DNA of 64,000 bases from a virus: positions 1 through 64,000 of IMG/VR virus record IMGVR_UViG_3300031857_000028; one strand, written 5' to 3'. The first letter of the stretch is position 1. Each line of letters begins with the position of its first letter. The position numbers and the translations under genes are program-made. The notes below the pieces were generated by a model that was not told the origin of the DNA, searched no databases, and saw nothing but the letters and a program-made list of their open reading frames with translations. Positions 36 to 29,440 of this stretch are shown piece after piece.

Positions 36-134
36 AAAAACAAAACCCCTACTTTCAGACATCAGAATGTTAGCGGCACTCTGAGCTTACTCATAGGGGT
101 AATTTTGTTATATATGAGAAGACTGCCGCTAACA
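36..134 (-). ncRNA. Candidate structured RNA or 3' UTR with pseudoknot and terminator
   Basis: Read on the minus strand, GTTAGCGGCA (133-124) pairs perfectly with TGCCGCTAAC (78-69), and the helix can be extended past one mismatch. Inside its loop lies ACCCCTA (100-94), which is complementary to TAGGGGT (51-45) beyond the helix, giving an interleaved (pseudoknot) order. A small TGAG/CTCA hairpin sits between. The last strand runs into TTTTGTTTTT (45-36), as in a factor-independent terminator. It lies just downstream of the lipoprotein gene ending at 172, so it may be that operon's 3' UTR or a processed small RNA. No known RNA family is recognised. Confidence 0.45.
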
Positions 135-171: not shown

Positions 172-723
172 TTAGGGCTTCTTATCACTACAATTCAGAT
201 TCCCTGCGGGATTTACTGCCATACAATACAGGCGTAAAGTATCTACCTTTGTAATACGAACGGTGTCTACCCGAACAACAATCGTTGGAACCCGCACGGT
301 ATCTACCTTAGTAATACGCAACGTATCCACTCTCGTTACAATCTTTGGTACATATACCGTGTCGAGGCGAGTAACTATCTTATTGACGGTATCAACGCGA
401 ACCAATCGCACTGTATCGGTTTTCGTAACAGTCCGTAGAACCGTATCGACTTTCGTTAATCGCAACGTATCTGTCTTGGTAACTGTCTTAACTACGGTGT
501 CTGTATTTGTACGAGTAATAATAACGGTATCCGTTCTAACAATTACATTGTTTACCGTGTCGGTCTTTGTCTTTACCAACGTGTCAGTCTTTTGAAGAAA
601 CACGGTATCCAACTTTCCATTTTTAAAATATACAGTGTATGGCTTCGTTGGGCCTTCATCTGCACATGCTGCACCTATAAGTACTGCTCCTACAACTGCT
701 GCTAACTTCAATATTCCTTTCAT
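172..723 (-). CDS. Lipoprotein with DTV/DTL repeats
   Basis: This 183-residue protein begins with a lipoprotein-type signal (MKGILKLAAVVGAVLIGAAC), with the likely lipidated Cys at residue 20. Residues 38-165 are a low-complexity array in which a VDTV/TDTV/VDTL unit recurs every 7 to 11 residues between Lys/Arg/Thr/Val-rich spacers. The alternating polar and beta-branched pattern suggests an extended beta or fibrous stalk. A short tail with two Cys closes the protein. An AGAGGAAG ribosome site precedes ATG 723. It is the last gene of a run of five exported proteins. Its function is unknown; an outer-membrane anchored spacer or a surface-exclusion protein are guesses. Confidence 0.75.
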   Translation of the reverse strand: MKGILKLAAVVGAVLIGAACADEGPTKPYTVYFKNGKLDTVFLQKTDTLVKTKTDTVNNVIVRTDTVIITRTNTDTVVKTVTKTDTLRLTKVDTVLRTVTKTDTVRLVRVDTVNKIVTRLDTVYVPKIVTRVDTLRITKVDTVRVPTIVVRVDTVRITKVDTLRLYCMAVNPAGNLNCSDKKP

Positions 724-733
724 ATACTTCCTC

Positions 734-1084
734 TTAAGTTTTAAGTTTTACACATTCAAAATTTAATCCATACGATATTCTAAAAGGATAATATAACCTA
801 TCTATGTGAGGAAAGCAATACAAATCCTTTTTATATCCTCGTAATATTACCTCAACCGTATCAGCCTTTGTCGCATAGCTAATATTATTAGTTGAATCAA
901 AATTGGTAAATAACGTATGGTTTTTTTGGTAAATGGTTTTTTCATTTTTGTTTACTATAATTTCCAAACTATCTATATATTTTCTATCATAAGCATAAAC
1001 GATTCTAATAGGGCTTCCTTGTAAAGACAGCGTGGCCGTAGAAGTTAGGACACCAATACATAGCAGTACTAATCGTCTGAACAT
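734..1084 (-). CDS. Small exported protein, unknown function
   Basis: This 116-residue protein has an N-terminal hydrophobic segment (about residues 4-20) that looks like a Sec signal peptide, possibly cleaved near residue 23. The rest is polar with many Tyr and Asn and two Cys near the C terminus (about 90 and 112) that could form a disulphide. The start codon lies inside the last codons of the upstream gene (overlap 1069-1084), so translation is probably coupled. The ribosome site is weak. It shares the DTV wording of its neighbours (KADTVEV). No family is recognised. Confidence 0.6.
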   Translation of the reverse strand: MFRRLVLLCIGVLTSTATLSLQGSPIRIVYAYDRKYIDSLEIIVNKNEKTIYQKNHTLFTNFDSTNNISYATKADTVEVILRGYKKDLYCFPHIDRLYYPFRISYGLNFECVKLKT

Positions 1085-1704
1085 GTTTCATTTTGTATCG
1101 TACCCCCACCAACCGCTTGCCAATTCAAACAGACGGTATTTGCATTCCGTAGACGAGCACCGGTAGACTTTCTGATGGCTAACGGAAACTTATCATATTC
1201 TGTTAAGCACTGTGGTATGGTTCTATCTCTATCCCGCATCACAATACTACCATCATTATATTCCATGAACGCACAGAATTGAACCGTTCGTGCAGCCACC
1301 GTTGTATCCCTCACCACCACACTATCTGGCTTCACATGAAGTCTGGTGACTTTGTAGTAAGCATCTGCGTTGAAATAAAAATTGACGTTTGCTGGAAGAC
1401 TTACCAATCCCCGGCGAACATTTACCATCATAAACCTATACGTAGTCGTATCATCGGGAATCGTAAATGATACGGTGTCTGGCATCTTTGCTCTTCGATA
1501 TACTACTGGCACTGAATCTTTTGATACGAACACCAGAATCATAGTACTATCAACTGCTTGAGGTTGTACCCATGTTACTCTAAAGCTAATTTGTTTTACC
1601 GTAGACATCAACGAAACCGCCGCACTGATTTGTTGCGGCGGTGACGGCTGAGCGTTCAGATTCAATGAACAAATACACATCAATGTAGCAAATAACCATT
1701 TCAT
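1069..1704 (-). CDS. Exported protein, fibronectin-like, paralogue of the next gene
   Basis: This 211-residue protein has a clear Sec signal peptide (MKWLFATLMCICSLNLNAQ) and no lipobox at the expected cleavage site. The body (about 25-120) is beta-rich and resembles a single fibronectin/Ig-like domain. It has the same length as the 1714-2349 product and shares its domain layout, including the phrase VRRGL-x-S at a similar depth, so the two look like an old tandem duplication. An AGAGGTT ribosome site precedes ATG 1704. Its C-terminal part carries three Cys. The function is unknown. Confidence 0.65.
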   Translation of the reverse strand: MKWLFATLMCICSLNLNAQPSPPQQISAAVSLMSTVKQISFRVTWVQPQAVDSTMILVFVSKDSVPVVYRRAKMPDTVSFTIPDDTTTYRFMMVNVRRGLVSLPANVNFYFNADAYYKVTRLHVKPDSVVVRDTTVAARTVQFCAFMEYNDGSIVMRDRDRTIPQCLTEYDKFPLAIRKSTGARLRNANTVCLNWQAVGGGTIQNETCSDD

Positions 1705-1713
1705 AAAAACCTC

Positions 1714-2349
1714 TTATTCTTTTACCAACGTGATAAATGTAATATTTTTCGTCACAAGAGTTGTTGTTCCATCTTCTTCACGAATAAACAATGACCGATA
1801 ATTTTTTAGATTGTTCGAATCGGTTGGTAAATTTGTAAAGAATTCATCGACTTTAATTGCTCCACCAATAATCGGTGCAGTCAATATGATGGTATCCACA
1901 CGAATTGAATCAGGTGGTGGCGGTGGACCATCCGCAGTTCTAATCACTACTTGTCCTTGTGCTGGAGTTGTTGATTCCAACCCACGGCGTACTGACCATA
2001 CACGAGAGGTAAGTATCAATGTATCGGTAACTGCTGGACGACTGATTGTAACAGTATCCACAAATCCGTTCACACGTTTTCTCGTTGGAAGGGTGCCCGA
2101 AACAGTTCTATTTGCAGTCATGGTATGCAAATAATATTCCGGGTCACCCAATCCATCTGATGTGGGCTTAGCCCAACGAGTTCTAATACTAATGGTACTA
2201 CTCACTAGATTGGAACTAACTAATGAAAATCCAACATCGGTTACTTCAGCAGGTGTTTTCTCTCCCGCAGGTGGTTCAATAACCCGTACCACTTCACATG
2301 CTGTTACAGCTACTACCAGTAATAATACTAAGTATTTTAGTTTGTTCAT
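1714..2349 (-). CDS. Lipoprotein, fibronectin-like
   Basis: This 211-residue protein has a lipoprotein signal ending in VTAC (Cys about residue 18), followed by a short Pro-rich linker. A beta-rich domain follows with the VRRGL-x-S motif shared with the downstream paralogue. A five-proline stretch (about residues 144-148) leads into a C-terminal segment with VDTIILT-type wording. Its ribosome site is poor, so translation may be coupled to the BIG2 gene 40 bases upstream. A cell-surface or periplasm-facing position is inferred; no function is known. Confidence 0.65.
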   Translation of the reverse strand: MNKLKYLVLLLVVAVTACEVVRVIEPPAGEKTPAEVTDVGFSLVSSNLVSSTISIRTRWAKPTSDGLGDPEYYLHTMTANRTVSGTLPTRKRVNGFVDTVTISRPAVTDTLILTSRVWSVRRGLESTTPAQGQVVIRTADGPPPPPDSIRVDTIILTAPIIGGAIKVDEFFTNLPTDSNNLKNYRSLFIREEDGTTTLVTKNITFITLVKE

Positions 2350-2390
2350 TGCAAAATCTCGACATAAGAATGAACAAAACCTTTAGAATG

Positions 2391-3527
2391 TTACGGTGTA
2401 ACCCTTAGTCCACGACGAGTAACCTTGTCACCAATCCATACTCGGAACGTTGCATCACCAGTTGCAACGCCCAACGTCAATCCACCATTCGATACCGACA
2501 AGAGTGACGGTGTATCAGACGCCCAATTAAATGTACGACCGGCCAATGCCGCAGTTTCAATACGACCACCATCTCGGTCAAAGGCTGTTGCGCTAAACTG
2601 ACGAGTAAATCCAATACGCAGGGATGTAGTATCACTTGGCGTCACAACAATCGTATCAATATCTACAATTCCAACTGTAAGATTAAATGTTGCCAATCGA
2701 CTGTCTACCAATGCCGCAACGGTCGTTGTACCCGTAAACAATCCAGTAACTACACCCGTGTTTGAAATCGTGGCAATCGATGGATTGCTCGTTGTCCATG
2801 TAACAGAACGACCAGCCGTACTCAGTAAATTCCCAACACTGTCACGAATGTTTAACGACAACTGTGTTGACCGACCGATAAAGAAATTATTAGTTGCTGA
2901 AATACTTACACTTGATGCGGGAACCACATTTACTGTCAATGTAAAATTTGCAGACCTACCTTCACTGGTTGCACGAATAGTCGTAGTACCCGGCCCAACT
3001 GCGGTAATAGTTCCCAACTGCGTTACGGTAGCTACTGCTGTATTGAGTGAAGTCCACTCGACAAACCGATTCGTAAGCAGTTCGTTACTCGGTCCCCTAA
3101 TTTCAATTCGGGGCGTAGTAGTCTGTCCGATAAACAGTGCAGTAGAACTCGGTGTCAGTACTACCACGGATACGGGAATATTAATAACTGCGGCAACAGT
3201 CTGTCCCGTTACATCACCTGACGTTGCATAAATAATGACTGCACCGGCAGATACACCCGTAACTACACCGGATGGACTTACTGTTGCGCGTGACGGGTCA
3301 GAAGAGCGCCACGTAACAGTCTTACCAGTTACGGTACCACCGGCAGCATTAAGCAGTGTAGCCGTAAACTGTTGCTGCTGTCCCACCGTCAACGTAAAGG
3401 CATTTGGACTTACCGTAATCGTAGTAACGGAGTCTGCCACCACGGGCGTCTTTACTACTTCCGTCACCTTACATGCGGACATACCACTAAACAAACTCAA
3501 ACCCAAAACCAACAAAACTTTCTTCAT
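2391..3527 (-). CDS. BIG2 (bacterial Ig-like) domain lipoprotein
   Basis: This 378-residue protein has a lipoprotein signal with SGMSAC at about residues 14-19. Four tandem BIG2 repeats follow, each with the hallmarks V-x-W-x-S-x-x-x-x-x-A-T-V, G-x-V-T-G and G-x-x-x-I-x-A (for example WRSSDPSRATVSPSGVVTG). The last repeat is divergent. BIG2 domains are common in bacterial surface proteins and in phage virion proteins, but a lipidated copy in a phage is unusual. It is the first gene of the exported-protein operon, has a strong AGGAGAGG ribosome site and a late-type motif about 25 bases upstream. Adhesion, exclusion or lysis roles are all possible. Confidence 0.85.
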   Translation of the reverse strand: MKKVLLVLGLSLFSGMSACKVTEVVKTPVVADSVTTITVSPNAFTLTVGQQQQFTATLLNAAGGTVTGKTVTWRSSDPSRATVSPSGVVTGVSAGAVIIYATSGDVTGQTVAAVINIPVSVVVLTPSSTALFIGQTTTPRIEIRGPSNELLTNRFVEWTSLNTAVATVTQLGTITAVGPGTTTIRATSEGRSANFTLTVNVVPASSVSISATNNFFIGRSTQLSLNIRDSVGNLLSTAGRSVTWTTSNPSIATISNTGVVTGLFTGTTTVAALVDSRLATFNLTVGIVDIDTIVVTPSDTTSLRIGFTRQFSATAFDRDGGRIETAALAGRTFNWASDTPSLLSVSNGGLTLGVATGDATFRVWIGDKVTRRGLRVTP

Positions 3528-3550: not shown

Positions 3551-3559
3551 TATAAATAG
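3551..3559 (-). promoter_or_regulatory. Candidate late promoter of the lipoprotein operon
   Basis: On the minus strand the site reads CTATTTATA, 24-32 bases before ATG 3527. The same element precedes several fibre and baseplate genes. It resembles a T4 late promoter only in being an AT-rich octamer without a -35 box. Assignment is by recurrence, not by experiment. Confidence 0.4.
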
Positions 3560-3561
3560 TC

Positions 3562-4437
3562 TTACTTTACTACAAACGAACAAAGGTCGGGCTTATCTCG
3601 GAAACTACACCAACGACATGCCTCTTTACTGGGTGATGCGCCTTGTTCGTGGACATATTCACCTTCAGAATTAAAAGCGGTACTCACAAACTTTTGAAAA
3701 CGGTCCCAACTCTTATTCACACTTGGAGTACCGTTCGATGGTTCGAACTTACTTACTCGTGGAATAGTAAATTGTGCATTCTCAAAAATTGTACGTTTCA
3801 GAATAACAAATTCAACCTTAATATTCTTTTCATCAATACCCAATTGCTGAGAAAAGAATCTCTTATACAAGAGCAACTGTCCTACCTTCGTCGGGTCTTT
3901 CTTCTGTGCATCCGTCCACCCCGAACGTGACGTTTTCAAATCATACAGGACGTATTGATTACTCACCGTGTTATGGGTCACGATGTCAATGTATCCCACG
4001 TAATTAACGCCCTTACGTACTTCCGCATTTAATTCATATTCAATTCCAAAAAGTCTGGTATTTTCTGTTGGGAATATTTTCTTATAATTATTTTGGATAT
4101 ATGTAAGGATTCCACACCCATGTTCATAAAACTCCATGAGTGTTTTCTTATCGGCAAGAAAGATTTTCTCACCCGATTCATTCACGACGGTATTTTCTTT
4201 AAAAAGATTCAAAAGCTTTTCTTTGAATCCGTCGTGAAGGTACATCGTCTTTGCCATCGTTTCACTTTTATTATATAGAACGTCCAGCCACTCTTGGATA
4301 GCTTCGTGCATACTCGTACCAAAAATGGTATGAATAGACGTATCATCCAGTTTGTGGCCGTCCACATATTTTAGTTTCCATGCATGTGCACAGTTTTCCC
4401 ACATTGAATATTGACTATAACTAATTCTTTTGCTCAC
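3562..4437 (-). CDS. Cas4/RecB-like PD-(D/E)XK nuclease with Cys cluster
   Basis: This 291-residue protein belongs to the PD-(D/E)XK nuclease superfamily, close to the Cas4/AddB C-terminal type. Visible motifs are a GTSMHEAIQ helix, the metal-binding Asp in GYIDIV, the DLK core in YDLKTS and the QLLLYK motif. A Cys near the N terminus (WENCAHAWKLKYV) and a C-terminal CRWC-x8-C form a likely 4Fe-4S cluster. Such phage enzymes are usually DNA-end-processing exonucleases in replication or recombination. The start is GTG at 4437, overlapping the previous stop as GTGA, which implies coupled translation. It sits in a three-gene operon driven from 5065. Confidence 0.85.
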   Translation of the reverse strand: MSKRISYSQYSMWENCAHAWKLKYVDGHKLDDTSIHTIFGTSMHEAIQEWLDVLYNKSETMAKTMYLHDGFKEKLLNLFKENTVVNESGEKIFLADKKTLMEFYEHGCGILTYIQNNYKKIFPTENTRLFGIEYELNAEVRKGVNYVGYIDIVTHNTVSNQYVLYDLKTSRSGWTDAQKKDPTKVGQLLLYKRFFSQQLGIDEKNIKVEFVILKRTIFENAQFTIPRVSKFEPSNGTPSVNKSWDRFQKFVSTAFNSEGEYVHEQGASPSKEACRWCSFRDKPDLCSFVVK

Positions 4438-5041: not shown

Positions 5042-5070
5042 TATATACACAATAATCTTGATATTGTCAA
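5042..5070 (-). promoter_or_regulatory. Sigma70-type promoter for the 5015 operon
   Basis: On the minus strand TTGACA (5070-5065) is followed by a 17-base spacer and TATATA (5047-5042), with a perfect TATAAT also overlapping slightly further on. It faces the zinc-finger gene starting at 5015. The same TTGACA-N17 layout occurs before the ligase, PolA-like, gp32 and UvsX genes. Confidence 0.65.
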
Positions 5071-12068: not shown

Positions 12069-13289
12069 TTACCTCTTAACGAATGTCATATTATATTCAT
12101 TAATGGTTGGAGTTTTCTCAATGCCAGGTTTTAATACCAAATCCTGTTTAAACAATCTGGTGTATGGAATGTAGTGGTGCGGACGGCCATCCACATGCAT
12201 TTCATTTGTAAGTTTAACAATCTTACCCCAATTCTTTTTTAACTCATCAAACTTTTTTTGATAACCAGAATTCGTGCCGCCTTCATAAATCGTGTCTGTG
12301 TTACCACCTCGCATAGTTCCCGTAGTTTGTTTACCACTGAGAAGACTATTGAAGTTCACCGTACACAAATCACCCGTTGACAATACACGTAAAGATAAGT
12401 CCGTATCTTCGTTATACGTACCACGCCACCGTTCATCTAACCGTTGGTCTAATAGTTCCGTATTAATTAGAATACAACTATAGACACGAGTATTCTTAAT
12501 AAATTGGCCTCGACCAGGCTCAGTTGCAGGTACGAACGATGCATACTGACACCCTACCAATCCTAGATTTTCATATCGGTCACTGAAATCTTCCATGATT
12601 CTAAAGAACACACCATCACGAATACGCTTTTTCATATTGTGATTCCATCGGAAGAAGCCAAGAATATTGTCATCAATTACCCAATGCTTCTTATGTCCGT
12701 GGTCAACGGAGTGCTGCCAGACAAAGTTACGCACCGGAATACTTCCCCGTTTTTGTTTACTAAAATTCTCTGGGAGTTTGATAATTTTATTTACATCCAC
12801 ATTAGCCGCATAACTATCGTATTCGTCGGGTTCCACGCAAATATTAAAATCAATACCCATTTCCTCTAACGTATCAATTGTAAGTGTGCGTTCCCAACGA
12901 CCCTTCGTAATAACATAAATTGGATATTTCGGATGAATCTTATGCGTGTATTCATACTCATAATCCTTGAATGGATTGTCTTCCAATTCAAAATGAACAT
13001 ATCCAGTTTTGTTTTCTTTGATACCTAGCGCATTAAAAAGAATATCTTTTTCTTGTTGACTTTTTACAGTGACCACCATTAAATGTCGTTCTTTTAAATA
13101 CGGCGACCAAACAAACTCTGGTAGGTTAAAATAATGTTCATTATCTAAATCATAGAAATCATGATTTTTGAAATCATATTCATACGACAACGTGTAATCC
13201 CAGAAGTCGCCTGGGATTACCGTTGTATTCAGTATGTGTTCTAATTTTTCTTTGTTACTCGTATGTATCTTTACAACTTCCACAGTCAT
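12069..13289 (-). CDS. TET-associated-type glycosyltransferase (TAGT-like), copy 2, with extra N-terminal domain
   Basis: This 406-residue protein carries the same motif set as its neighbour: IYVITKGRWERT, CVEPDEYDSYA, PVRNFVW, HWVIDDNILGFF and EDTDLSLRVLSTGD. About 115 extra N-terminal residues (STSN-free, Tyr/Asp-rich, with an ERHLMVVTVKSQQEKD strand) may be a separate DNA- or substrate-recognition domain. Two different copies may attach successive sugars or act on different bases. A GAGAAGT ribosome site precedes ATG 13289, and the stop is 4 bases before the next start. No TET/JBP dioxygenase or hydroxymethylase is present in this window. Confidence 0.65.
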   Translation of the reverse strand: MTVEVVKIHTSNKEKLEHILNTTVIPGDFWDYTLSYEYDFKNHDFYDLDNEHYFNLPEFVWSPYLKERHLMVVTVKSQQEKDILFNALGIKENKTGYVHFELEDNPFKDYEYEYTHKIHPKYPIYVITKGRWERTLTIDTLEEMGIDFNICVEPDEYDSYAANVDVNKIIKLPENFSKQKRGSIPVRNFVWQHSVDHGHKKHWVIDDNILGFFRWNHNMKKRIRDGVFFRIMEDFSDRYENLGLVGCQYASFVPATEPGRGQFIKNTRVYSCILINTELLDQRLDERWRGTYNEDTDLSLRVLSTGDLCTVNFNSLLSGKQTTGTMRGGNTDTIYEGGTNSGYQKKFDELKKNWGKIVKLTNEMHVDGRPHHYIPYTRLFKQDLVLKPGIEKTPTINEYNMTFVKR

Positions 13290-14390: not shown

Positions 14391-14915
14391 CTACATCTCC
14401 TGTGAATTCAATAAGATTGATAATTCTTTCCAATCAAAGTTACGTCCAGGGTCATCTTTACGTCCTAATGGTAAAGCAACATCTGAATGTCCTACGACAG
14501 TATACGTTGTTGTATCTTTATATCGTGTTCTTAGTTGCTTTATGAGCCATGCAGTACTTTGATATTGTAACTGTGTATATGGTTTTGTTATACCATTTTC
14601 TAAACAAATACCAATACTGTATTTATTGATTCTAAACAGCCCTTTCCATACAGAGTATCCAACATGAGATGCTACATATTTCGGGTCTAACAGTTTCATT
14701 ATCGTCCCATCACGTTTTACATAGTAATGATAACTTAATCGACGTTTAATTAATGTTGCACGAGCCGAATTGTATCCACCAGAGCCACCATCATTATGGA
14801 TAATAATATAGTTTCTACTTGTATCTCGTATTTGTACCCTTCGTTGTGGTAATAACTGTTCTACAACTTTTGGTTGTGTTCCAGTTAATTGTAACAATAA
14901 CATCAGTTTAATCAT
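14391..14915 (-). CDS. N-acetylmuramoyl-L-alanine amidase (amidase_2/PGRP), likely endolysin
   Basis: The enzyme should cleave the glycan-peptide bond of peptidoglycan. Zinc ligands are visible as His in YIIIHNDGG, His in VGHSDVAL and the Asp-type site in GRKDDPG; ASHVGYS matches the HxGxS segment. The frame is open to 14999, but that part overlaps the tRNA-like element. ATG 14915, with a GGAG site 8 bases upstream, is the better start (174 residues). The N terminus MIKLMLLLQLTG is hydrophobic and could be a signal-arrest or Sec signal, implying export without a classical holin. It may alternatively be a cell-wall remodelling enzyme. Confidence 0.85.
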   Translation of the reverse strand: MIKLMLLLQLTGTQPKVVEQLLPQRRVQIRDTSRNYIIIHNDGGSGGYNSARATLIKRRLSYHYYVKRDGTIMKLLDPKYVASHVGYSVWKGLFRINKYSIGICLENGITKPYTQLQYQSTAWLIKQLRTRYKDTTTYTVVGHSDVALPLGRKDDPGRNFDWKELSILLNSQEM

Positions 14916-14930
14916 ATAATTCTCCAAAGA

Positions 14931-15032
14931 GGCAGTGGAGGATTCGAACCTCATTCCTTGGCCTAGCGTAGTAAAAGTTATAACGAGTAGCGAACCCAAT
15001 TTACTACCGACTTCCCGACAGTCCGCACTGCC
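14931..15032 (-). tRNA. tRNA-like element with expanded anticodon region
   Basis: Minus-strand ends GGCAGTG (15032-15026) and CACTGCC (14937-14931) pair as a 7-bp acceptor stem. A GACT/AGTC D-stem with a GG-containing loop and a canonical T-arm (GAGG-TTCGAAT-CCTC) are present. The T-stem has only four clear pairs. The element is 102 bases, too long for a standard tRNA. Where the anticodon arm should be, GTAGTAAA and TTTACTAC pair across about 24 bases, and no normal 7-base loop with 5-bp stem can be drawn. It could be a degenerate tRNA, an interrupted tRNA or a structured RNA mimic. The isotype cannot be assigned. Confidence 0.45.
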
Positions 15033-20727: not shown

Positions 20728-20994
20728 TTAGTCACTTAAAGCCGAAGTAATTGCATCAATATATTTTTGTTTTGATTGTAGTCCAACCATTCTATCTATC
20801 GTCTGGTTGTCTTTCTCAATAATTACCGTTGGAACATTTCTAATTGCATAGAGTTGTGCAATCATCGGCTTCTCATCAACATCTACGGTAATAAATTTTA
20901 CATCGGTAAATTGTTCTTCCAACTTTTTAAACTCGGGTGCTAAGAGTTTACAAGGGCCGCACCAAGGTGCGCTAAATCGTGTTACATGAATCAT
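20728..20994 (-). CDS. Thioredoxin-like protein 2 (WCGPC)
   Basis: This 88-residue minimal thioredoxin has the classical active site APWCGPCKLLAPEF (about residues 9-22), the FITVDVDEKP strand and the cis-Pro in RNVPTVII. It is shorter than cellular thioredoxins because it begins directly at the first core strand. Its ATG overlaps the TonB-receptor stop as ATGA. Electron donation to the ribonucleotide reductase encoded upstream is the likely function. Confidence 0.92.
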   Translation of the reverse strand: MIHVTRFSAPWCGPCKLLAPEFKKLEEQFTDVKFITVDVDEKPMIAQLYAIRNVPTVIIEKDNQTIDRMVGLQSKQKYIDAITSALSD

Positions 20995-23669
20995 TGTTTT
21001 ATTGAAACTCCAAATGAAAGTGTTCGTCCTGCATTAAATCCTTCACGCTCCATAGTTCCTTGTGTATAACTATAACGAGCGTCCAACAAATTACGCATAT
21101 CTAATCGTGCGGTGACATTGTGAGCCACCGGCATTTTAACTGTGACATCTAACAAGTTTCTGGCCTTTTCCACGATATTGGGAAGCGGCATAACACCTGC
21201 TGCAAAGATTCTGTCACCCACTCTATTAAAGAGAATGGTTGCGTTGGTTTTACCATCCAATGATGAATACGTCAATCCCGTGTTCATGACATACGGTGCT
21301 TGTCCAACCAAGGCTCTGGATTTGTCCGTCACCGTTAATGCTTGCGTGGTATCTAATTGTACCAACGAATGCATCAAAGTAATATTACTAAATGTACTCA
21401 CATGTGTCAAGAGTTGTTTACGAAGTTCTAGTTCCACGCCATAATTTGTTGCAGAGATGGCATTCTGGAATCGTGCTTGGTATGCCCCAGACGTTGCCTG
21501 TTCCAATCGTTCTATGGGGTTGATAAAGTGTTTGCTGAATACACCAACACTTATGACTTCATAATTCGTTGGAAACCATTCGTAACGAATATCTACATTA
21601 TTAATGAGTGCTCGTTGGAGATTACTATTTCCAGTAATACTCACACCACCTAATACGTCACGGAATGTAACCGGTGATAGTTCCCGATACTCTGGACGAG
21701 ATAGTGTGCGAGACACAGCAAATCGAAGATTTTGTGCGTCTGTTAATTTTGTATTAATTAATAATGACGGTAATACATCCATGTTTTCTAACCCAGACCC
21801 AGCTTCAAATCCACCTTGGGTTCTGGTATTTACTTTGATGGTTGCTGATTCCAAACGTCCACCAGCAATCATTCGTACCTTATCCGTTAATTGCCATTCT
21901 GACATTGCATAAGTAGCTTGTGTTACGTCGGATGCGGTATATGAACCGGCTTGTCCGATAGGTTGTACATTTACCGTAGTAGCTTGTTCTTTACTGAAAA
22001 TTACATTAGCAGGTTGTGCAGTAATCTCTTCGTTTGCTCTGGATATAAATGCATATATCGGTGCCTCTGCCGTTCTATTCGTGGTTCTACTATATAGTCC
22101 CACCTTAATAAGATTTTGATTCAACGTAAACGTGTGGTCTACTTGTCCTACGATATTGGTTTCTCCCAAATCGAAATAGACACGACGAGCACCGTCTAAC
22201 GAAGACAAAATACGATAGGTACCAGCAGATACACGAGAATATACCACATCAGAACGGTCGGGTTCTTTTCGAACAGTGTTACCATATGTCAATGACCATG
22301 CAGTTTTATTTGCATTGGATACTTGATGTTCACCCAGTGCGGTCATGTTCACCACTCCACGGGCAACATATCGTAACGTGGTACGAGCAATACTGTCATT
22401 TAGATTTTCATCAAATCCACCGTCTACTCGTGCTTCATTATCAGCATTTCTGGTAAGGGTAGTGTTCAATGCTATACGAGAGTTTTGACCTAACATTGCC
22501 GAAAGATTTGCTATTCCTCCCCACTGTACACCAACTCTGCCGGTGGTACCTTGTAACGTGGTAAGTGGTACCACGGTATTGTTTGCTCCTTGATTACCTA
22601 CGGCAGTAACTTCATCAGCCTTTCGTTCTTCAGAATATCCATAATTGGCACTAACAACATATCCAATACGTTTTCCAAGAATACTGTTTCCACCGGCAGA
22701 TACCCCCACTGACCCATTTCCCATTCCATTTCGATAAATGGGTGACCAAACATTACGTTGCTGAGTTACAATATCCTGCATCTGCTGTGGAGTTACTGTA
22801 CCAAAAAAATTTGCTTGCTGCAATGCGGTTGGCATGTTACGTGATGAACCGACTAATCCAAGTCTTTCACCGCCAACTCGTGGAGCAGTCGGCATATATT
22901 CATTGAGTACCACCGAGTTTCCACCAAACCCAACTGAATAATTCACTTCACGATTTGCAGGAAATTCCTTCGTACGAATATTAATATTTGCTCCAGCAAA
23001 GTCACCAGGTTGGTCTGGAGAGAATGTTTTACTGGTACTAATATCTTGAAGTAGTGATGTAGGAAATAAATCTAACGGAACAACTTTACGTTCTGGTTCT
23101 GGGCTTGGAATACGAACACCGTTTAATGCTGCCGTCGTATACCGTTCACTTAATCCACGAACTTGTAAGTATTTCCCATCTTGTACCGTAACACCGCTAA
23201 TACGCTGTGCTGCTTGTGCCGCATCTCCATCGGGGGAACGAGAGATTTGTTCTGCGGTAATAGCATTGACCACATTTGTCGAATTTCTTTGTTGATTCAA
23301 TGCTTCACTAATCGTTCCCTTTTCTTTTGCTGCCGTGACACTCACTGCCGCGAGTTGAATTTTTGCAGCAGTCAGTGACACATCTTGATTAATAATACCA
23401 TCGACGGGGACAACAATCCCAGTGATAGTCTTTGGGGTGTATCCAATACGACGAACTTGCAGGGTTACGGTGCCAGCTCCTACCTTCAACCGATACCGTC
23501 CGTCCAAGCCGGAGGCACCACCCGTTGTGGTACCTACGACTTGAATTCCTGCGTCCACGATACCTTGACCTGTCGTAGCGTCAAGGACTTTTCCAACAAT
23601 CTGACCAGTTTGTGCCTGAACCAATGTTGGACACAATATGAAAACAGCAGTTAATAATTTTCTCAACAT
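20991..23669 (-). CDS. TonB-dependent outer-membrane receptor
   Basis: This 892-residue protein looks like a complete TonB-dependent receptor: a Sec signal ending VQAQTG (about 20), a carboxypeptidase-regulatory-like beta domain (23-105; VGKVLDATTGQGIVDAGIQV), a plug (about 118-250; AQAAQRISGVTVQDGKYLQV, then RGLSERYTTAALNG and RIPSPEPERKVVP) and a long Tyr/Thr-rich barrel ending RTLSFGVSIKQ. Such receptors import cobalamin, siderophores or glycans in Gram-negatives and are hardly ever encoded by lytic phages. It lies in-operon between a B12-type reductase (gap 17 bases) and thioredoxin (ATGA overlap), so it is not a contig artefact. No ribosome site is visible before ATG 23669. Its substrate is unknown; cobalamin is a context-based guess. 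Confidence 0.92.
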   Translation of the reverse strand: MLRKLLTAVFILCPTLVQAQTGQIVGKVLDATTGQGIVDAGIQVVGTTTGGASGLDGRYRLKVGAGTVTLQVRRIGYTPKTITGIVVPVDGIINQDVSLTAAKIQLAAVSVTAAKEKGTISEALNQQRNSTNVVNAITAEQISRSPDGDAAQAAQRISGVTVQDGKYLQVRGLSERYTTAALNGVRIPSPEPERKVVPLDLFPTSLLQDISTSKTFSPDQPGDFAGANINIRTKEFPANREVNYSVGFGGNSVVLNEYMPTAPRVGGERLGLVGSSRNMPTALQQANFFGTVTPQQMQDIVTQQRNVWSPIYRNGMGNGSVGVSAGGNSILGKRIGYVVSANYGYSEERKADEVTAVGNQGANNTVVPLTTLQGTTGRVGVQWGGIANLSAMLGQNSRIALNTTLTRNADNEARVDGGFDENLNDSIARTTLRYVARGVVNMTALGEHQVSNANKTAWSLTYGNTVRKEPDRSDVVYSRVSAGTYRILSSLDGARRVYFDLGETNIVGQVDHTFTLNQNLIKVGLYSRTTNRTAEAPIYAFISRANEEITAQPANVIFSKEQATTVNVQPIGQAGSYTASDVTQATYAMSEWQLTDKVRMIAGGRLESATIKVNTRTQGGFEAGSGLENMDVLPSLLINTKLTDAQNLRFAVSRTLSRPEYRELSPVTFRDVLGGVSITGNSNLQRALINNVDIRYEWFPTNYEVISVGVFSKHFINPIERLEQATSGAYQARFQNAISATNYGVELELRKQLLTHVSTFSNITLMHSLVQLDTTQALTVTDKSRALVGQAPYVMNTGLTYSSLDGKTNATILFNRVGDRIFAAGVMPLPNIVEKARNLLDVTVKMPVAHNVTARLDMRNLLDARYSYTQGTMEREGFNAGRTLSFGVSIKQ

Positions 23670-23686: not shown

Positions 23687-25537
23687 TTAAATAACCTCAC
23701 ATCCTCCAGCACCACATGCAACTTCACCGGCAAGGTTTGTTACGTCTTCCAATTCAACCACTTGCGTTAAATCAATCATATGTAAGTGTGTTAGAAGCTC
23801 TTCATACTTTTCCTTCGTGATGTCTTCAAATGGGGCCTGCACATAGCTATGGTCAGAGAACGGTAACACACTGAGTGCCGTGAAGTTTTCCTTATTGGTC
23901 CACATCCATTCTCCAACTTCTTCCCACTCCCCATCCTTGATGGACACGGTGACCGAAACATTATTCTTGTTCTCACCCTTACGATGGCCCGTCTTCACCC
24001 AATCCTTCCAAACCTTACTTACTCTACCAAGTAAATCAAGTGCCGTTTCTTGACGGGTAACTGCTCCTTCTGGAGCACGTTGTGGGATACCGATAACGGC
24101 TTGAATGTTCGGCTTGAAGTAATCGTCTTCCAAGAGTTCTGGGTGGTTGAACAACAAGTACGAGTAAATACTTTCATTCTTACCGACACGAATACGACGG
24201 ATGTAATACTCGTTATGCCAAGCATGAATTCCAGAGGAAGTCCCAAGTACCAGCGAAGAGGTACCTTCGGGCTTGACCGTAGTAGTACGGGCAGCTTTCT
24301 TGATGCCAAGTAATTCCGCTACTCTTTCGTTCTCCGCCTTCACTAGATTTGCTGCTTCCTTCATATCCAGCTTTAGTACCGCACCAGAGGCAATACCGGT
24401 CATAGATACGCCAATCAGTGCTTCGCGTTCGGTAGTCTTTTTCCATATATCTCTCAAATAGTGGAAGTTCGTATAACTTGCTTGAAGGGTACCAATAAAG
24501 GCGGCTGCCCGTGCACGGGCATTCAGGTCATCTTGGTCTACCACACTTCCTGCATCAATGGTAGTAAGATTACAGAACTGAAAGGGACGGAGAGAAATTT
24601 CCGCACACGGGTTCAGCCCCCAACTTGCATCGTTCGTGAAGAAAAAGCCCGGTTCACCAGAACCACTCAATTCAATCTTTTTCCAGAGTTCCAAGAATGT
24701 TTCCTTTTCAATCTTGTGACGAACGATAACAGCACTGTTATTAGCACGAGCGCGTTGTGGATTATTCTCCCACCAATTACCGAACTTACATGTGAGCATG
24801 TCATCATCGTCCAAGTCAAACAAAGAGATCATAGCGGAACGACGAATACCACCAGAGAGTACTGCATCAGCAATGTAGCAAAGAATATCATGCACTTCAA
24901 TCGTACTAAGTTGTTCACCGTTCTGTTTACGATCAAAAATCTTTTGGATATTGTGAAGTGCATCCTTCAACGGTTCTGGACCAGGCGCCTTCCCACCCGA
25001 CGTAAGAAGTAATGCACCCTTCTGACGAATGTCACGGAAGTCAAATAATGGAAGAGGCTTGCCCTTTAAATACGAAGCTACCAATACCTTGACTGCATCT
25101 GCCCATCCTTCAATACTATCACCAACGAGATAGCGACGAGTCTTGGATGGCTTCGTAATCTCTGGTAACTTTTCAACGTGCTGTCTCTGTACTGAATACC
25201 CTACACCTGTACCAGACAACAATAAAAACATGACTTCACTAAAGGCATCTGGATGGTCTATAGGAAGAAAGCAACAATTATACAATCGTGCATTATTAAT
25301 TTCAATTGGTTTACCAGCAAACTGCAACGAGCGCATACTGGGGAGAATCTTCTTCTCGTAGACAAATGTATATGCGTCTTCGATTTCTGCACTCAAGTGC
25401 GGAAACTTCTGTAGGTGCATATTTTTGTTACGGGTCACCAATTCTTCCCATGTTTCTCTGCGTTGTAGTTCTGGTATGTACTTCGCATATTTCATAAATG
25501 TCGTAATTTCCGACAATAGCTTTGATTCTAACAACAT
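23687..25537 (-). CDS. nrdJ: Ribonucleotide reductase, class II (cobalamin-dependent) type
   Basis: This 616-residue enzyme reduces ribonucleotides to deoxyribonucleotides. Recognised features are NARLYNCCFLP (first redox Cys), LLLSGTGVGYSV, GLNPCAEISLRPFQFCNLT (radical Cys and conserved Glu), RTTTVKPEGTSSLVLG and the C-terminal redox pair in ACGAGGCEVI. A single compact chain without the class I ATP cone, with no NrdB gene and no NrdG activase nearby, fits the monomeric adenosylcobalamin-dependent RTPR group. GGAGAAG precedes ATG 25537. It is followed by the TonB receptor and two thioredoxins. Confidence 0.9.
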   Translation of the reverse strand: MLLESKLLSEITTFMKYAKYIPELQRRETWEELVTRNKNMHLQKFPHLSAEIEDAYTFVYEKKILPSMRSLQFAGKPIEINNARLYNCCFLPIDHPDAFSEVMFLLLSGTGVGYSVQRQHVEKLPEITKPSKTRRYLVGDSIEGWADAVKVLVASYLKGKPLPLFDFRDIRQKGALLLTSGGKAPGPEPLKDALHNIQKIFDRKQNGEQLSTIEVHDILCYIADAVLSGGIRRSAMISLFDLDDDDMLTCKFGNWWENNPQRARANNSAVIVRHKIEKETFLELWKKIELSGSGEPGFFFTNDASWGLNPCAEISLRPFQFCNLTTIDAGSVVDQDDLNARARAAAFIGTLQASYTNFHYLRDIWKKTTEREALIGVSMTGIASGAVLKLDMKEAANLVKAENERVAELLGIKKAARTTTVKPEGTSSLVLGTSSGIHAWHNEYYIRRIRVGKNESIYSYLLFNHPELLEDDYFKPNIQAVIGIPQRAPEGAVTRQETALDLLGRVSKVWKDWVKTGHRKGENKNNVSVTVSIKDGEWEEVGEWMWTNKENFTALSVLPFSDHSYVQAPFEDITKEKYEELLTHLHMIDLTQVVELEDVTNLAGEVACGAGGCEVI

Positions 25538-29422: not shown

Positions 29423-29440
29423 CCTTTAGATTATAGTCAA
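29412..29440 (-). promoter_or_regulatory. Sigma70-type promoter for the UvsX operon
   Basis: Minus-strand TTGACT (29440-29435), 17-base spacer and TATATT (29417-29412). The -35 box lies just upstream of (and touches) the gp32 stop region. The -10 box lies in the loop of the terminator hairpin, so termination and initiation signals are interleaved. Confidence 0.6.

Follow-up and report, generated by a model that had tools for sequence, protein, structure and literature searches.

Five adjoining genes of the lake-phage record IMGVR_UViG_3300031857_000028 form a cassette of exported, mostly immunoglobulin (Ig)-like proteins that, judging from its sequence, most likely modifies the infected cell's envelope. 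The genes occupy one run on the minus strand, from 3527 down to 172, in bases 1-64000 of the 145,753-bp record; this stretch of 64,000 nucleotides (nt) is called the window here. With a probability of roughly 40%, the cassette would serve as a late envelope-modification set against superinfection or against the loss of progeny on cell debris. The phage is a member of the T4 superfamily, with a terminase ~52% identical to those of Microcystis phage Mel-JY01 and Flavobacterium phage immuto, with recognizable tail sheath, tail tube and UvsX families, and with nearly all of its genes on the minus strand. A second contig from another assembly, 100% identical over 11,527 bp and extending 3.1 kb beyond the end of the record, also carries the cassette, which is therefore real and not an assembly chimaera.

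The five open reading frames (ORFs) nearly abut one another and are, in order of transcription:

2391..3527, minus strand: gene 1, BIG2lp, a lipoprotein of 378 amino acids (aa) with its lipobox cysteine at C19 and four BIG2 Ig-like domains; optional cassette member
1714..2349, minus strand: gene 2, FNlp, a lipoprotein of 211 aa (C18) with an FN3-like domain; triad member
1069..1704, minus strand: gene 3, FNsp, a secreted protein of 211 aa with an FN3 domain and a C-terminal four-cysteine domain; triad member
734..1084, minus strand: gene 4, sp116, a small exported all-beta protein of 116 aa with a conserved cysteine pair; triad member
172..723, minus strand: gene 5, DTV, a lipoprotein of 183 aa (C20) with DTV/DTL repeats and a C-terminal cysteine pair; optional member

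An earlier note on this DNA had described three lipoproteins and two signal-peptide proteins in one run, with four BIG2 domains in the first protein, two likely paralogues, and DTV repeats in the last. All of this held on closer analysis, and we place high confidence in the anatomy as listed. Export signals are present in all five proteins, and a run of five exported genes has a chance of ~7.5e-5 in a simulation with 12 exported-looking ORFs among 179, called by a simple hydrophobicity rule. BIG2lp matches Pfam Big_2 (PF02368) in 4 stretches (E=4.6e-37). FNlp and FNsp, linked by BLASTP at E=0.031 and by profile-profile comparison over the FN3-like region (87.5%, E=3.6e-6), are classed as distant paralogues. 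The predicted structure of FNsp (AlphaFold pLDDT 72.8) resembles FN3 domains (Foldseek to FN3con, E=2.6e-4). For sp116 (pLDDT 77) an FN3 fold is not claimed: its FN3-like matches in the PDB are weak (E>=0.02; the top one, an FN3 scaffold, at a non-significant E=0.022), and a viral library gave no significant match. Ig-like folds are thus present in at least three of the five proteins, and the cassette consists mostly of Ig/FN3/BIG2-type beta-sandwiches. The DTV repeats are real, one block of 18 aa being absent from the homologue at L104 (L-numbers denote loci; 80 were retrieved by alignment of the neighbouring exonuclease).

The signals and domains are conserved among relatives. In six viruses the FNlp lipobox cysteine C18 is invariant, marking it as an exported lipoprotein as in the Llp/Cor/Rtp45 group discussed below, and sp116 keeps a hydrophobic N-terminus; the FNsp signal ends in an invariant A-Q and its four-cysteine domain is conserved. 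In three viruses the DTV lipobox C20 is invariant, with an atypical glycine at -3. Homologues of FNlp in five other viruses are 40-45% identical in conserved gene order, those of FNsp 51-73% and those of sp116 51-74%; a relative of BIG2lp at L003/L014 reaches 54%. DTV is 91% identical at the same place in L104 and 45% identical elsewhere in L096, whereas the neighbouring FNlp and FNsp are only 41-52% identical between the window virus and L104, which suggests that DTV has been exchanged separately from its neighbours. No convincing family was found for the triad or DTV in Pfam, PHROGs, NCBIfam or PADLOC, FNlp having no Pfam family; matches to ARD, DUF6959 and GGGP synthase were all weak and below cut-off and were dismissed as chance. 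No match to BIG2lp or FNsp was obtained by tblastn against annotated phages, and an alignment scan of genome contigs with FNsp yielded no cellular relative.

An exonuclease and a SpoU methyltransferase flank the slot that holds the cassette, and the content of this slot varies.

3562..4437, minus strand: PD-(D/E)XK exonuclease (Pfam PDDEXK_1, 2.2e-15; phrog_69), the conserved border of the slot, outside the cassette

As in the window virus, FNlp, FNsp and sp116 follow one another in the slot of L013, L018, L022 and L104, and a cassette is likewise present in L002. L109 has a relocated copy. In all, six divergent viruses have the triad in order, which answers the suggestion of the earlier note that the same cluster be sought in related phages. 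L104 adds DTV to the triad, and L018 adds two exported genes, one of them repeating the FNsp cysteine domain (E=3.8e-8). Other genes, one of them for a small lipoprotein, fill the slot of L015/L016. The slot is empty in L023, L024, L025 and L095, exonuclease and methyltransferase being adjacent. Given this variability and the absence of the cassette from close relatives, the cassette is placed as dispensable accessory cargo of the moron type in a swappable slot. It shares with moron genes its own promoter motif and its variable presence between core genes, and differs from them as a whole multi-gene exported operon of a T4-superfamily phage with a late-class motif. The ratio of nonsynonymous to synonymous substitution (0.06-0.19 in close pairs) indicates that the triad is under purifying selection. 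The triad also appears to be specific to phages: among 118 genomes of the host family (a Gemmatimonadota family; see below), profiles of FNsp and sp116 found no match, the FNsp profile recovering all five phage records, and FNlp found two short, weak stretches (best E=9.4e-7 over 65 positions). BIG2-type proteins are common there (105 of the 118 genomes).

Two further kinds of slot protein were seen. An exported protein of 362 aa between FNsp and sp116 (L018:9207-10295) has no Pfam family and is a candidate for a lectin-like fold. Small lipoproteins of ~60 aa when mature, with cysteines at 1, 14 and 54, lie at L002:12935-13165, L104:10302-10523 and L016:9006-9236. Their size recalls T5 Llp, but they match no solved exclusion protein, and kinship with Llp was set aside as resemblance only.

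The claim of a shared, late-type (A/C)TATTTAT motif was supported.

3551..3559, minus strand: CTATTTATA, a promoter motif of the late class; the first ATG in the cassette follows 32 nt downstream

Of 140 genes, 17 have the motif [AC]TATTTAT 25-46 nt upstream; 500 dinucleotide shuffles gave a mean of 0.9 such genes (standard deviation 0.89, maximum 4), and the reverse complement precedes none. Among the bearers, a family is known for two baseplate-hub genes, for the tail tube, for a neck adaptor and for one cytidyltransferase-like protein; most others have no family. The motif is absent from the genes for SSB, helicase and exonuclease, and before UvsX only the heptamer TATTTAT by itself occurs, at 18 nt. 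In a relative of 166.6 kb (G005) it is kept at 5/5 alignable bearers compared with 3/57 other genes. Before the cassette it is kept in five relatives (L003, L013, L018, L022 and L104), and cassette-free relatives have no motif following the exonuclease. The identity of the bearer genes leads us to infer that this class is transcribed late. These are not T4 late promoters, the T4 late element TATAAATA at -10 occurring upstream of none of the 140 genes.

Export signals, lipoboxes, Ig/FN3 domains, the late-class motif, the variable slot, purifying selection, the phage-specific triad, the other lipoproteins of the slot and precedent together point to envelope modification. The cassette would be made mainly late, and its five products would be delivered to the periplasm and the outer membrane. 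A host surface receptor may be bound there by the Ig-like domains and so be masked or jammed, with DTV as an extended membrane-anchored rod and BIG2lp as an optional arm at the surface that resembles host proteins. The infected cell or its debris might then no longer take up sibling phages and released progeny, in a mode like that of T5 Llp but without kinship. T5 Llp acts by jamming FhuA, and proteins of this kind also keep phages from adsorbing to fragments of lysed cells (PMC9586334); Rtp45 acts on LptDE (PMC12685063). Like T5 Llp, T1 Cor and Rtp45, the cassette would provide phage-encoded exported lipoproteins for the host envelope. Whereas each of those is one small early protein, the cassette has five larger, mostly Ig-like proteins, a late-class motif and no detectable sequence similarity to them.

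Several observations weigh against this reading. Early synthesis is usual among known exclusion proteins (PMC9586334), whereas the motif of the cassette is of late class, and in L109 the triad lies behind the methyltransferase without the motif. The cassette proteins exceed known exclusion lipoproteins in size and number and show no similarity to them; the FNlp profile had no hit in the PDB at E<=1, the presence of Llp and Rtp45 chains in that set not being separately checked. Cargo in such a slot could also serve many functions. Even so, of the three roles first offered for the cassette, namely lysis, packing on the virion and exclusion of other phages, exclusion appears to rank best. To our knowledge, the exclusion lipoproteins whose mechanism has been worked out come from enterobacterial phages, each acting as a single small protein. 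The window virus has several genes for exported Ig-like proteins, a phage-specific set that occupies a swappable slot and bears a late-class motif of its own. The triad offers defined candidates for envelope remodelling, and the presence of two promoter classes makes its timing directly testable.

The phage also encodes a receptor that bears on both its host and the role of the cassette.

20991..23669, minus strand: TonB-dependent receptor-like outer-membrane protein of 892 aa (Pfam Plug, OMP_b-brl_3, CarbopepD_reg_2), outside the operon

Full-length matches of 65-69% identity occur in 15 Gemmatimonadota genomes, compared with at most 36% in 345 Bacteroidota genomes; the phylum of the matching genomes was taken from locus L120. 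Copies in L095, L111-L117 and L119 were also found, with 67-85% identity among eight phages. In a tree these eight phage copies form one clade (100/100), which falls with the 15 host sequences into a larger clade (100/100); the L119 receptor is a separate capture. The receptor derives from Gemmatimonadota, and these phages have captured it at least twice. Since this one captured gene nests among Gemmatimonadota receptors, the host is probably a member of that phylum, for which no described isolate phage was found in literature searches. A SusC-like TonB-dependent receptor is known from the megaphages Mar_Mega_1 and LR745206 (PMC9723777); the receptor here is likewise phage-encoded but only ~26% identical to that of LR745206, of Gemmatimonadota origin, and outside the operon. 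Beside it, at 23687-25537 on the minus strand, lies a gene for a ribonucleotide-reductase-like protein with weak features of the B12-dependent class.

The receptor, conserved and encoded by the same phage, invites the proposal that the Ig-like lipoproteins are surface cargo that helps the infected cell to feed, attach or aggregate, perhaps together with the receptor. The abundance of BIG2 surface proteins in the host family is in keeping with this, as is the DTV relative in L096, which adjoins a lipoprotein-like protein with a tyrosinase domain (L096:11731-13074; Pfam E=2.7e-29). However, receptor and triad are distributed independently: a link was sought and not found, the triad occurring without the receptor in two relatives of 164-167 kb, and the receptor being present in L095, where exonuclease and methyltransferase are direct neighbours. 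A late promoter would also leave scant time to gain from uptake, and we consider surface cargo unlikely, though it survives better than the other rivals. A long shot that joins receptor and cassette is that the cassette disables a TonB-dependent receptor of the host through which phages adsorb, and that the captured, diverged receptor of the phage keeps up nutrient import without phage binding. If true, this would amount to superinfection exclusion by receptor replacement, in which the outer membrane is rebuilt late in infection.

The timing assumed for envelope modification has its own competitor, in which the motif plays no part and transcription of the cassette is early or constitutive, mainly by read-through from the exonuclease operon.

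5042..5070, minus strand: sigma70-like promoter (TTGACA-17-TATATA), recognized from the sequence, before the exonuclease operon
69..133, minus strand: hairpin just past the cassette, with arms at 124-133 and 69-78; a possible terminator or boundary

No terminator was found in the interval between exonuclease and cassette, so that early read-through from this promoter would be possible, and the motif-less triad of L109 fits such a scheme. The statistics and conservation of the motif, together with its absence after the exonuclease in cassette-free relatives, argue against it and make it a rather improbable account. The hairpin at the other end (-32.3 kcal/mol in a predicted fold of 120 nt) has strong counterparts at the same place in relatives. 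As a separate observation, sigma70-like promoters (TTGACA/T-17-TATATT) lie inside strong hairpins between gene blocks at L013:7428, L016:7936, L018:11324, L022:9591 and L104:10109, with a similar element at 29440 on the minus strand of the window, as if one element ended the upstream operon and started the next.

Interference in the periplasm, by which the proteins would block an envelope-located host defence or a competing mobile element, would suit the variable slot and rapid turnover expected of an arms race, as well as the small exported proteins with conserved cysteine pairs. We hold it improbable, as PADLOC gave no family match and late-class timing is late for such a role.

The spanin-like lysis offered by the earlier note is disfavoured and very unlikely. 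On this reading, either DTV or the FN3 lipoprotein would supply the outer-membrane component of a spanin, in line with the late-class motif and the lipoprotein signals, and the DTV repeat could form a rod across the periplasm. Two-component spanins pair an i-spanin with an N-terminal transmembrane domain and an adjacent o-spanin lipoprotein, and unimolecular spanins combine an N-terminal lipobox with a C-terminal transmembrane domain (PMC6139136). The cassette would share with them an outer-membrane lipoprotein and late-type expression. However, a 19-residue scan found no transmembrane segment beyond the signals and no C-terminal transmembrane domain in the five proteins (hydropathy maximum 1.82, in the BIG2 strand region; 0.44-1.43 in the others). 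The run therefore contains no inner-membrane partner or i-spanin gene and no unimolecular spanin. An endolysin gene lies elsewhere, at 14391-14999, and the cassette is not kept at this site in L016, L023-L025 and L095, although copies elsewhere in those fragments are possible. Decoration of the virion is weaker still: BIG2 and other Ig-like domains are frequent in phage virion proteins (such as those of PHROG families phrog_215 and phrog_341) and the late-class motif is common to structural genes, but every cassette protein carries an export signal and three have lipoboxes. Such signals are missing from virion proteins, whose assembly is cytoplasmic. The cassette is also dispensable, and FNsp has no homologue in annotated phages, so that packing on capsid or tail is disfavoured and can be put near the bottom of the scale.

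Elsewhere in the window, at 12069-13289 on the minus strand, a gene matches the T4-type beta-glucosyl-HMC-alpha-glucosyltransferase (phrog_842, E=5.8e-33), and the DNA of this phage may be glucosylated.

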